From assembly GCA_017624235.1 (NCBI GenBank), contig JAGANL010000051.1:1-64000 (forward strand): 64,000 nucleotides of DNA. The letters run 5' to 3'. Position 1 is the stretch's first letter. The number at the start of each line of letters is the position of its first letter. Position numbers and translations under genes: made by a program. The DNA comes from Lachnospiraceae bacterium. GTDB lineage: Bacteria; Bacillota; Clostridia; Lachnospirales; Lachnospiraceae. Below the pieces are notes generated by a model, which was given only the letters and a program-made list of their open reading frames with translations, made no database searches and was not told where the DNA came from. Positions 6,308 through 57,436 of the stretch are shown here, one piece after another.

Positions 6308-6351
6308 AAAAAAACACCCACGAATCAGTATTAGCAACTACTGTCCCGTGG
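6308..6351 (-). terminator. Riboswitch-controlled terminator before the CDF exporter
   Basis: On the minus strand CCACG, CAGTA, then TACTG and CGTGG form an interrupted stem (6318-6351) followed by seven T residues. Its 5' strand is also the last part of the aptamer, so folding of the aptamer and of the terminator exclude each other. Confidence 0.8.
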
Positions 6352-6425
6352 ATGAAAGATACCACTGTCACTCATGTGACCCGACTCCATGACATTCTGT
6401 CACGGTCTGCTCAGTTTGTACTGTA
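6336..6425 (-). ncRNA. NiCo (czcD) riboswitch aptamer
   Basis: Read on the minus strand, the region holds the conserved NiCo blocks in order: AACTGAGCAG, then GTCGGG, a short GTCAC/GTGAC hairpin, CAGTGG, a second hairpin and CACGGGACAGT. The class binds cobalt or nickel cooperatively and turns on metal exporters; the next gene is a CDF exporter. The closing stem (ACTG...CAGT) and the downstream terminator fit the on-switch design. Recognised by motif only, without a covariance model. Confidence 0.82.
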
Positions 6426-33469: not shown

Positions 33470-33579
33470 ATTCATAAAAGGGCGCACAAATAGTATAAGA
33501 AAAGAGACCTTACGGCAAAACTTTTATTATATATTGTTCGCGACCAGTTACTCGTGGCCCGGGGAATCATCCCCGCTCC

Positions 33580-33750
33580 TTCTGCAGGCAGGTCTCCTGA
33601 CTCATAGATCTTCATATCAGACTGTCTTCCCGATTGCTCAGTGACATCATAGCCTGATACTCCCTAAATACAGTGACGAGTTCGTACAGGATTTTCACCT
33701 GTTTCCCTTTTCACCGAACCGGATATATTCCGTTCGACACCTACAGCGGC
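33580..33750 (-). ncRNA. Cobalamin riboswitch
   Basis: On the minus strand, the B12 box reads GAGTCAGGAGACCTGCC (33587-33603). Upstream come the other conserved blocks: GGTGTCGAACGG, AAAAGGGAAACAGGTGAAA with ATCCTGTACG, and TCGTCACTGTATTTAGGGAG. A GC-rich hairpin (CGGGGATGATTCCCCGG, about 33555-33572) just downstream may take part in the usual loop-loop contact. It controls the whole downstream operon by ligand-dependent termination; high B12 should switch the 21 genes off. Confidence 0.93.
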
Positions 33751-33779
33751 AGATTTTCAGTCTCTGCATGACTAGCAAC

Positions 33780-45672: not shown

Positions 45673-45688
45673 TACGAAACTCAAGCGA

Positions 45689-46010
45689 AATACCTGTAGG
45701 AATAACAGTTCACCCCGCGCCAGTTTCAGCCCGCGCCACCCCGGCCGACTGTTGAAATTCCAATACGACATACGAACTGGTGTTTTCTAAATAGAGCAAC
45801 TAAATTCTGTATAGCCGACCGGGCCGGATTCCATGCGCATCCATGCGCAGCGAATCCTGAAATCGGCATCCGTGCCGATTTCTCCCTTAGGATTTAAATG
45901 CTCTATTAAGAAAACACACAGCCCGTCTGTATGTATTGGAATTTCAACAGTCGGCCGGGGTAGCGCGGTCTGAAACTGGCGCGGGGTGAACTGTCGCCTG
46001 TACAGGTATT
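45689..46010 (-). repeat. Large palindromic element, copy 1 (3'-UTR structured element)
   Basis: Two inverted arms of about 117 bp (45689-45805 and 45894-46010), about 85 percent identical, enclose an 88-bp centre. Read on the minus strand the centre folds into two hairpins: AAATCGGCA-CGGA-TGCCGATTT and a longer one, GGATTC...TGCGCA-TGGA-TGCGCA...GAATCC. The arms contain GTTTTCTTAATAGAGC paired with GCTCTATTTAGAAAAC, with one conserved T-T mismatch. The element begins 16 bp after the stop codon of the ABC ATPase gene (46026) in sense orientation and ends before the purC promoter. No reading frame or T-run terminator is present. A relative with the same plan is at 56685-56976. Confidence 0.85.
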
Positions 46011-46025
46011 TGCTGCTGTAACATG

Positions 46026-55488: not shown

Positions 55489-55560
55489 AAGATAAAAATT
55501 CAGGCAAAATAGATTTGACCATATTATATCATTATCTGACACATGAACGCAAGGAAAGGA

Positions 55561-56673
55561 ATGAAACTTCGTATGATACAGCACAAGGAACATTTTCACG
55601 GAAGTGATTTGGAAAAGATTGAGAAGGTTTATGGCATCAGAAGGGAGGAGATTGTCAGTTTTTCCGCCAATGTCAATCCACTTGGAATCTGTCCCCGGAT
55701 GAAGGAGGCGCTTTCCTCCCATCTGGATGTCGTCACCTCCTACCCGGATCGGGAATATACCGCTCTCAGGCAGGCGATTGCCTCCTATTGCGGCACAGAT
55801 GCCTCCTATGTCATGGTAGGCAACGGCTCCACAGAGCTGATTTCCCTTTTTATCAAAAGCAGGCACCCCAGACAGGCTCTGATTCTGGCTCCTACCTATT
55901 CGGAATATGAACGCGAGATTGGGTTAAGCGGCGGTACATGCCACTACTTTACTCTGCATGCAGACAATGGATTTGCTTTGAATATCGATGCTTTAACAGA
56001 AGAGCTTACGGCCAAGCAGATTGATCTGCTCATTCTGTGTAATCCGAACAACCCTACCTCAACTGCTCTGACCAAAGAAGTGATGGAATCCATCCTGGCT
56101 TATGCACAGTCTCACGGCATCGGTGTCATCGTGGATGAAACCTACTGTGAGTTTACACCGGATGTGGAAGCATACAGCGCCATTTCTCTGGTGCCTTCCT
56201 ATTCGTGTCTGGTAGTTCTGCGCGGCGTTTCCAAATTCTTCGCCTCCCCCGGACTGCGCCTGGGCTATGCGGTGACAAGCGATGAAGGGCTCTTGTCCTA
56301 TATTCGTGAGCATAAGGATCCCTGGACCATCAATTCTCTTGCCGATCTGGCCGGACAGGTCATGTTCACGGACACCGAATACATCCAGGGCGTGCGCTCC
56401 CTCATCCAGACCGAACGCACCCGGGTCTGCGAACGTCTTCGTGCCATTCCCGGACTGACGGTATTTGAACCCTATGCCAATTTCGTGCTGCTGCGTATTG
56501 ACCGACCCGCCCGAAATGCCGCCCAGCTTTTCGATGCCGCCATCCGTCAAAAAATGATGATCCGTGACTGCTCCACCTTTCCCGGACTGACCGAACAATA
56601 CTTCCGCCTCTGCTTTATGCTGCCCGAAGACAATGACAGACTGCTTACCCTGATAGAAGAATTTTTTGCCTGA
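55561..56673 (+). CDS. PLP-dependent aminotransferase, CobD/HisC-like
   Basis: Class I/II aminotransferase fold, 370 residues from the ATG at 55561 (AAGGA five bases upstream; an ATG six codons earlier is open too). HFHGSDLEKIEKVYGI and VSFSANVNPLGI resemble threonine-phosphate decarboxylase. LILCNPNNPTSTAL binds cofactor, IVDETYCEFTP has the Asp, and the Schiff-base Lys is in LRGVSKFFASPGLRLGY. It could be a second CobD, a histidinol-phosphate aminotransferase or a related decarboxylase; the sequence alone does not settle this. Its stop is 12 bp before the second palindromic element. Confidence 0.85.
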   Translation: MKLRMIQHKEHFHGSDLEKIEKVYGIRREEIVSFSANVNPLGICPRMKEALSSHLDVVTSYPDREYTALRQAIASYCGTDASYVMVGNGSTELISLFIKSRHPRQALILAPTYSEYEREIGLSGGTCHYFTLHADNGFALNIDALTEELTAKQIDLLILCNPNNPTSTALTKEVMESILAYAQSHGIGVIVDETYCEFTPDVEAYSAISLVPSYSCLVVLRGVSKFFASPGLRLGYAVTSDEGLLSYIREHKDPWTINSLADLAGQVMFTDTEYIQGVRSLIQTERTRVCERLRAIPGLTVFEPYANFVLLRIDRPARNAAQLFDAAIRQKMMIRDCSTFPGLTEQYFRLCFMLPEDNDRLLTLIEEFFA

Positions 56674-56684
56674 CATCTCAGCCA

Positions 56685-56976
56685 GATATTGCGCCAGCGC
56701 CAGCCGCCGCCCTCGCCGGACAGACCCCGCTGCAAAAATTCCGGGCCATGCATAGGGACTGCGCGTTTTCTTAATGGAGCTTTCAAAAAACCAGGGAAAA
56801 ATCGGCAAGGAGGCCGATTTTAGGCTTCCCTATGCAAGGAGGCACATGGAAGCCGCCCCGACCTCCTGTCAATACCCCAATGCTCCATTTAGAAAACCTC
56901 AGTCCGTATGCCGGCCCGGAATTTTTGCAGCGGGGTCTGTCCGGCGAGGGCGGCGGCTGGCGCTGGCGCAATATCT
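56685..56976 (+). repeat. Large palindromic element, copy 2 (3'-UTR structured element)
   Basis: Arms of about 96 bp (56685-56780 and 56881-56976) are inverted; the outer 63 bp are perfectly complementary. The 100-bp centre folds into AAATCGGC-AAGGAG-GCCGATTT and GGCTTC...TGC-AAGGAG-GCA...GAAGCC. The inner arm parts read GTTTTCTTAATGGAGC and GCTCCATTTAGAAAAC, the same motif as copy 1 with a paired change. It begins 12 bp after the stop of the PLP enzyme gene in sense orientation, and the next promoter starts 20 bp after it. It holds no credible gene and no T-run. Arms are very GC-rich compared with the surroundings. Confidence 0.88.
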
Positions 56977-56995
56977 TCCTCTCGTAAAAAAGTAC

Positions 56996-57046
56996 TTGAC
57001 ATTTTTCTCTTTTGTCGTATTATTGTATTAAGCACTTGTTACAATA
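56996..57046 (+). promoter_or_regulatory. Promoter and operator of the GntR-ABC operon
   Basis: TTGACA (56996-57001), 16 bp, TATTAT (57018-57023). The inverted repeat TATTGTA (57021-57027) and TACAATA (57040-57046), 12 bp apart, overlaps the -10 box and start point and is a good operator for the GntR protein encoded next. Confidence 0.7.
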
Positions 57047-57067
57047 GCACAAGAAAGGAGCGATGAA

Positions 57068-57436
57068 ATGGCATGGACACTTGATTCAGACAGACCTATT
57101 TACCTTCAGTTGGTAGAAATAATCCAGATGCGTATCGTATCCGGTATCTACAAAGCCGGAGACCGTCTTCCCAGTGTACGGGAGCTTGCCACCGAGGCAG
57201 GGGTAAATCCCAATACGATGCAGAAGGCCTTCGCAGAGCTGGAACGCAGTGGACTGATTTTCACACAACGCACCAGCGGTAGAACCGTTACCGAAAACAC
57301 CGAATTGATTTTCTCAATTCGCGAATCGCTGGCAAGAGAACAGTTAATGCAGTTCTTCTCCAAAATGAAGGAGCTTGGCTATGAACAGACAGAAATAACT
57401 GCCCTGATCAATCAGGCAGCTGAGGAGGGAAAATAA
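57068..57436 (+). CDS. GntR family regulator, YtrA subfamily
   Basis: A short, 122-residue GntR regulator. Residues 10-75 are the winged helix (PIYLQLVEIIQMRIVSGIYK, then LPSVRELATEAGVNPNTMQK). Residues 76-122 form a helical dimerisation tail typical of YtrA, with no ligand domain. Such proteins repress the ABC transporter genes that follow, often in response to cell-wall antibiotics. The ABC gene starts four bases after the stop codon. GAAAGGAG lies before the ATG. Confidence 0.92.
   Translation: MAWTLDSDRPIYLQLVEIIQMRIVSGIYKAGDRLPSVRELATEAGVNPNTMQKAFAELERSGLIFTQRTSGRTVTENTELIFSIRESLAREQLMQFFSKMKELGYEQTEITALINQAAEEGK

Follow-up and report, generated by a model that had tools for sequence, protein, structure and literature searches.

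The hairpin element at positions 56684-56976 of the window, by which we mean the whole 64,000-nucleotide stretch of Lachnospiraceae DNA that was analysed, is probably one of the scattered copies of a palindromic DNA repeat of mobile type. Its apex is the Rfam family TwoAYGGAY (RF01731) and is predicted to bind CsrA, and its arms appear to be held in pairing by a process acting on DNA. This reading starts from the observations that the element has many copies, is patchily distributed among relatives, is missing from the corresponding sites of a genome of the same genus, occurs in both orientations, and carries arms that have diverged between copies and yet remain self-complementary.

Architecture of the element and identity of its core

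The window holds two copies. In copy 2, two arms of 64 nt each, on the plus strand at 56684..56747 and 56913..56976, are perfectly (100%) complementary and flank a 165-nt core, which matched the TwoAYGGAY model from position 1 to 168 of 168 (56749..56912, plus strand; 68.1 bits, E 2.9e-9). Within the core, a helix is formed by GTTTTCTTAATGGAGC (56765..56780, plus) and GCTCCATTTAGAAAAC (56882..56897, plus), in which T56772 and T56890 make a T-T mismatch; both sides were identified from the sequence and are kept in the consensus of 36 copies from the same genome (G000). Above it stand apex hairpin 1 (56798..56821, plus; hexaloop AAGGAG at 56807-56812) and apex hairpin 2 (56823..56854, plus; hexaloop AAGGAG at 56836-56841), the loops of which are conserved among the 36 copies. 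The predicted RNA fold of 56684-56976 has an energy of -225.1 kcal/mol, as compared with a shuffle mean of -107.5 (sd 5.4), and the minimum-energy structure contains the second hairpin only, with hairpin 1 displaced by other pairing. Copy 1 lies on the minus strand, with its core at 45767..45931 (92 bits, E 1e-14, model 1-168 of 168) between a 5' arm at 45933..46011 and a 3' arm at 45688..45766, each of 79 nt and 90% complementary to one another.

The open reading frame upstream of copy 2 encodes a class I/II aminotransferase of 376 aa (55543..56673, plus; PF00155, E 1.2e-52), and the one downstream a GntR-family regulator of 122 aa (57068..57436, plus; PF00392, E 7.2e-16). An earlier note on this DNA had described an order of parts common to both copies, paired differences between them, a conserved T-T mismatch and AAGGAG in both loops of copy 2, and all of these were found in the sequence. 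It had also placed copy 2 shortly before a promoter, in agreement with a promoter-like TTGACA-16-TATTAT at 56996-57023, 19 bases 3' of the element. The distance of 12-16 bp that it gave from stop codon to element does not hold for copy 2, where the gap is 10 bases because the upstream stop codon ends at 56673; for copy 1 it depends on the arm call, being 14 bases with the 79-nt arm and 11 with a longer one. No terminator-like site was found in 56600-57120. Elsewhere in the window, on the minus strand, a cobalamin riboswitch (33570-33759; RF00174, 111 bits) and a NiCo riboswitch (6339-6424; RF02683, 71.9 bits) were recognized.

Both window cores score above the RF01731 gathering cut-off of 43 and cover the full model. 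The two hexaloop hairpins are present in copy 2, where both loops fit ANGGAN and not the strict AYGGAY. A table in PMC2864571 lists the family, with occurrences in human gut, gamma-Proteobacteria and Clostridiales, as probably an RNA and as one that is not cis-regulatory; its Rfam label is Cis-reg.

Copy number and distribution

The G000 assembly (2.33 Mb, 80% complete) contains 37 RF01731 matches, 36 of them above the cut-off. Together with 40 relatives, the family was detected in 6 of 41 genomes and in none of the other 35, with at least 37 copies in G000, 2 in G001, 20 in G005, 7 in G009, 18 in G023 and 2 in G024. In a survey of 392 genomes of the order, with at most seven candidates scored per genome, 34 carried TwoAYGGAY, 32 of these above the family cut-off. 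Copy numbers in both surveys are lower bounds, because stricter filters lose weak matches; in two genomes assembled in one and two contigs, 49 and 25 copies were counted. Full-length matches also occur in Lachnospiraceae assemblies (L118, L137). Carriage by phages or plasmids was considered and rejected, as the copy 1 core had no match in the phage and plasmid collections; the one pattern searched in viral contigs likewise gave no exact match.

Arms diverge between copies and remain complementary within them

Thirty-five G000 copies have arms of 48-81 nt. Between copies, arm identity averages 58%, against 49% after shuffling and 79% for the cores, whereas the two arms of one copy are 92% identical, a figure in which an offset of the register by one base is scored as an error. 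The additional copies thus keep the pairing that the earlier note had reported for two (of the arm columns in the 35 copies, 2179 are Watson-Crick, 98 mismatched and 42 gapped). In other genomes the shortest arms measure about 26 nt and the longest at least 300 nt, where the search stopped, and mismatches and gaps are usually more frequent. Arm extension at random places never scored above 7 in 207 trials, a value exceeded by 61 of 62 copies from 24 genomes.

Two genomes, G181 and G387, share an element at the same place (969 nt alignable, 83%), and here change in situ could be followed. Both sides were altered in 29 of 301 comparable pairs, as compared with 8.0 expected if the sides changed independently, and 20 of the 29 double changes went from one Watson-Crick pair to another; one-sided losses produced G.U in 8 cases, A.C in 10 and other mismatches in 19. 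A second orthologous pair, G265/G406, had both sides changed in 12 (4.8 expected), with only one clean double change, a point against our reading. Such concerted change in place is what one would see if each arm served as a template for the other. Template switching is a process of this kind, acting on DNA, in which a perfect stem is restored and both partners of a pair change in a single step (PMC8794818). That paper describes such upkeep of hairpins for RNA genes, and we propose it here for a dispersed repeat.

Mismatches show no preference for the RNA strand

RNA pairing accepts G.U and rejects A.C, and on the opposite DNA strand the two are swapped. In the arms of 80 copies (six of 86, with arms shorter than 20 nt, were dropped) the G.U:A.C ratio was 145:135, by genome 48:40 in G000, 26:26 in G005, 38:23 in G023 and 14:29 in G009. 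A further 62 copies from 24 genomes, a sample that leaves aside six of the 34 positive genomes, gave 209:199, and the two sets sum to 354:334. These counts come from equal-penalty scoring, as an arm scoring that favoured G.U had returned 50:28, and they may include random mismatches added to both classes where arm extension overran the true arm end. In the cores of 148 copies, evaluated copy by copy at positions flanked by Watson-Crick pairs common to the folds of both strands, the ratio was 29:41, and in the apex hairpins alone 11:14.

Because the tRNA control (18 tRNAs; G.U 4, A.C 0) and the riboswitch control were too small, the comparison was made with terminator-like hairpins of the same DNA, restricted to those in which a single pair departs from Watson-Crick. 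Among 43 such hairpins that pair was G.U in 24, A.C in 7 and another mismatch in 12, and the contrast with this control was significant for the arms (Fisher P 0.005), the core (0.001) and the apex hairpins (0.014). Two results count against our reading: the arms of G023 lean to G.U, and an alignment-based core test in four genomes, restricted to pairs common to the alignment folds of both strands and with three truncated copies left out, leaned to G.U by 38:22. The strength of the contrast is therefore uncertain, since the control is small and this earlier core test pointed the other way. Overall, no RNA-strand filtering of mismatches is visible, and because neither arms nor cores show a preference for G.U above A.C, in contrast to the control hairpins, copying at the DNA level can explain the paired changes.

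Empty sites in a related genome

The 16-kb stretch that holds both window copies aligns to a single contig of G001, a genome of the same genus, and the element is absent from both sites; the two copies that G001 does possess sit on another contig. In place of copy 1, G001 carries some 50 bases, among them a terminator-like hairpin, and in place of copy 2 some 26 bases. Both flanks also align without the element at L034, L004 and L023, and L008 was judged empty from BLAST segments, its alignment being poor. Of the nine sites compared, G001 lacks the element at six, five judged by alignment and one by BLAST segments, and L014, L033 and L025 gave no call. At L004, the native terminator-like hairpin of the gene persists downstream of the insert. 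We infer that G000 gained these copies rather than G001 losing them.

Like MITEs, the element is scattered in many copies that end in inverted repeats (arms on 35 of the 37 G000 matches). Target-site duplication shows weakly, which counts against our reading: flanking direct repeats of at least 7 bases accompany 4 of 35 G000 copies, as compared with 2.6% of mismatched pairs, in one of three window sizes; three other genomes showed no excess (3 of 41 vs 3.4% by chance). A common neighbour gene was rejected, since no family recurs among 305 neighbouring proteins. In G345 (L252-L256) the elements often form divergent pairs, the first on the minus and the second on the plus strand, and the 0.3-1.5 kb between them is non-coding and contains repeats of its own; divergent pairs were also seen in G009, G327, G404 and G398. 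An autonomous partner between the G345 pairs was rejected as well, the stretches examined having no ORF longer than 131 aa. A mover enzyme was thus found neither among the 305 neighbours nor between the G345 pairs, which counts against our reading, and the element is presumably non-autonomous.

Placement relative to genes and replication

The earlier note had proposed a fixed sense placement after stop codons, to be tabulated genome-wide, and this tabulation contradicts it. A stop codon lies within 60 nt upstream of 11 of the 37 G000 copies in sense and of 10 in the opposite orientation, with 16 showing neither; across six genomes (86 copies) the figures are 19 sense, 21 antisense, 1 both and 45 neither. 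An element bound to gene ends in sense orientation was rejected on these counts. Altogether 21 of 37 copies face a stop within 60 nt. Random points between genes do so in 32% of cases (P 0.0017), a share that rises to 46% when every intergenic gap is given equal weight (P 0.14), so that nearness to stops is at most a modest excess. With respect to replication, 45 of 79 copies lie on the lagging and 34 on the leading strand (P 0.26). In G398, leaving out three copies near the origin and assuming a terminus near 1.7 Mb, 30 vs 16 copies are co-oriented with replication (P 0.054).

As a separate observation, clustered copies of the element occur beside sequences resembling ParB (parS) sites, TGTTTCACGTGAAACA. 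Four exact sites surround three tandem copies in G398 (L262, G398:C1:3437000-3440500), two are present in G023 (L056, G023:C2:29802-32962) and two in G327 (L237, G327:C7:612104-613368), and 915 kb of other DNA contained none, with up to two mismatches allowed. The clusters may reflect a preference for the origin region, or element and TGTTTCACGTGAAACA may have been duplicated together.

Apex loops and the distribution of CsrA

The apex loops follow the pattern C-ANGGAN-G, in which the A and the GGA are nearly invariant and the N positions vary. Among 36 aligned G000 copies, hexaloop 1 begins with A in all 36, continues with C in 18, A in 12, T in 4 and G in 2, has each letter of GGA in all 36, and ends with T in 34 and G in 2. 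In hexaloop 2, A is present in 35, G in 35, G in 34 and A in 35, with mixed letters at the second and last positions; the exceptions are one copy without the loop and one with GAA. Both loops are thus kept in 34 of 36. At least one CANGGANG occurs in 137 of 148 copies from 30 genomes and in 4% of shuffles. In the same genomes, with two of the 148 copies dropped, GGA is present in both apex loops of 101 of 146 copies, in one loop of 40 and in none of 5. The copies short of two GGA loops count against our reading, as do two of the seven copies of G009, which lack GGA in either loop.

This pattern is the one recognised by RsmE, which contacts the A and the GGA of ANGGAN and tolerates variation at N (PMC7652899), and CsrA binding by TwoAYGGAY has already been proposed on motif grounds (PMC4333381). 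A CsrA gene was detected in all 34 element-bearing genomes and in 225 of 392 overall (P 2e-9 by genome, genomes not being independent, and 5e-5 by genus); in the smaller set the counts are 6 of 6 element-bearing vs 26 of 41 genomes (P 0.05). Flagellin is likewise found in 34 of 34 element-bearing genomes (242 of 392 overall), and the link to CsrA is therefore not separable from motility. In G000, the assembly of which is incomplete, the only CsrA found is a divergent form (58.7 bits, 124-aa frame). This CsrA-like protein is encoded at L272 (G000:C18, about 125576-125725), and similar second CsrA copies, with frames of about 100-130 aa, were seen in G001, G009, G002 and G017. What is new on the CsrA side is the co-occurrence of element and protein, the binding idea itself being that of PMC4333381.

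Separately, an exact hairpin, AAATCGGCANGGANGCCGATTT, is multicopy in Pseudomonas, Billgrantia/Halomonas, termite Treponema and Doudnabacteria (L114-L187, 74 stretches). Four of 18 scanned loci match RF01731, two of these (Pseudomonas) only partially. A second GGA hairpin adjoins many of the loci, and only this second hairpin counts as independent, because the pattern itself required the first loop. Possibly, these are unrelated repeats that have CsrA-type loops in common.

The selection apparent at the apex suggests a hairpin recognised by a protein, plausibly as an RNA bound by CsrA, to judge from the loop letters. The earlier note had argued for selection on RNA structure from paired changes and placement. 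Part of this stands, in that the apex loops look selected; the paired changes and the placement are not evidence for it, because no RNA-strand bias is visible and both orientations are found near stops. Half of the stop-adjacent copies are antisense and would not display their loops by read-through, which counts against our reading; and since the loops are intact in both orientations, their upkeep is independent of read-through from the neighbouring gene. This leaves two options, transcription of the copies independent of their neighbours or a part played by the loops in propagating the element.

Discussion

We favour the interpretation of the element as a mobile-type palindromic repeat with a CsrA-binding apex. 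A process acting on DNA would keep the arms complementary, the simplest candidate being template switching from one arm to the other while the DNA is replicated, and paired changes would then arise without selection on RNA. Once the sense strand is transcribed, the two apex hairpins would bind a CsrA dimer, as predicted in print (PMC4333381). A stop-adjacent copy such as copy 2 would give the mRNA of the upstream gene a CsrA-binding stem-loop at its 3' end, and together the copies could titrate CsrA.

The core matches TwoAYGGAY over its full length; where the literature consulted presents an RNA, we find the tip of a longer palindrome in the DNA, dispersed in up to 49 copies per genome, the arms of which start at about 26 nt and reach 300 nt or more. 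ERIC, RUP, RPE and the Yersinia palindromic sequence, as characterised in PMC2229807, are similarly short, non-coding, intergenic, multicopy and palindromic, without a transposase of their own, and for ERIC co-transcription of the copies and effects on mRNA stability are described (PMC2229807). In comparison with that description, the arms of the present element are longer, have diverged almost to randomness between copies and yet pair within each, and are joined to a conserved apex in which two loops show GGA. With the CsrA-sequestering RNAs of the CsrB/RsmZ type, the element has in common paired hairpin hexaloops with GGA in an ANGGAN context (PMC7652899, PMC3791407), but it exists as many dispersed copies in both orientations rather than as one sRNA gene, and its binding of CsrA is a prediction. 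The palindrome, the dispersal and the DNA-level pairing of TwoAYGGAY were not found in the literature searched.

In REP and attC sites a single-stranded DNA hairpin is read by a protein, and loops kept in both orientations, pairing at the DNA level and dispersal (37 copies in G000, up to 49 elsewhere) would all be expected if a transposase or other DNA-binding protein read the single-stranded loops here as well, with no function in RNA. We regard this as rather unlikely, given how closely the loop letters match the CsrA contact pattern, the unbiased replication strand, the absence of an associated enzyme among the neighbour proteins and in the G345 between-pair stretches, and the co-occurrence with CsrA in 34 of 34 genomes, confounded though it is.

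That TwoAYGGAY is a conventional structured RNA, either an sRNA or a 3'-UTR structure, with its helices including the arms selected for RNA pairing, appears improbable. Strong covariation between copies, the extreme fold stability of copy 2, the invariant loop letters, the one core test that leaned to G.U and the slight replication co-orientation in G398 are what such an RNA would lead one to expect; however, neither the arms nor the per-copy core test shows the G.U excess of the 24:7 control, orientation to genes is unbiased, a genome may hold up to 49 copies, and the arms are nearly unalignable between copies. Long hairpins that replace intrinsic terminators or form a gene-end barrier are hardly tenable: although 21 of 37 copies face a stop at a distance of 60 nt or less and G001 has a terminator-like hairpin in place of copy 1, no terminator-like site was found around copy 2, the native terminator persists at L004, 16 of 37 copies have no close facing stop, and the enrichment near stops varies with the null model.

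Returning to the palindromic repeat with a predicted CsrA-binding apex, a broader scenario can be offered tentatively. TwoAYGGAY may be a selfish palindromic repeat that spreads CsrA-binding hairpins in motile gut Clostridia, forming a distributed sponge of up to about 50 copies that rewires the post-transcriptional regulon, with covariation from arm template switching having led to its filing as an RNA.

Covariation usually ranks above all other evidence that an RNA structure is functional, and here is a covarying Rfam family whose pairing is blind to the RNA strand and whose copies, found in both orientations, are those of a dispersed palindromic repeat of DNA. Counting G.U vs A.C is a simple way to separate the two cases and could be applied to other families. 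If the CsrA step is true, a mobile repeat carries the binding sites of a global regulator into many transcripts.
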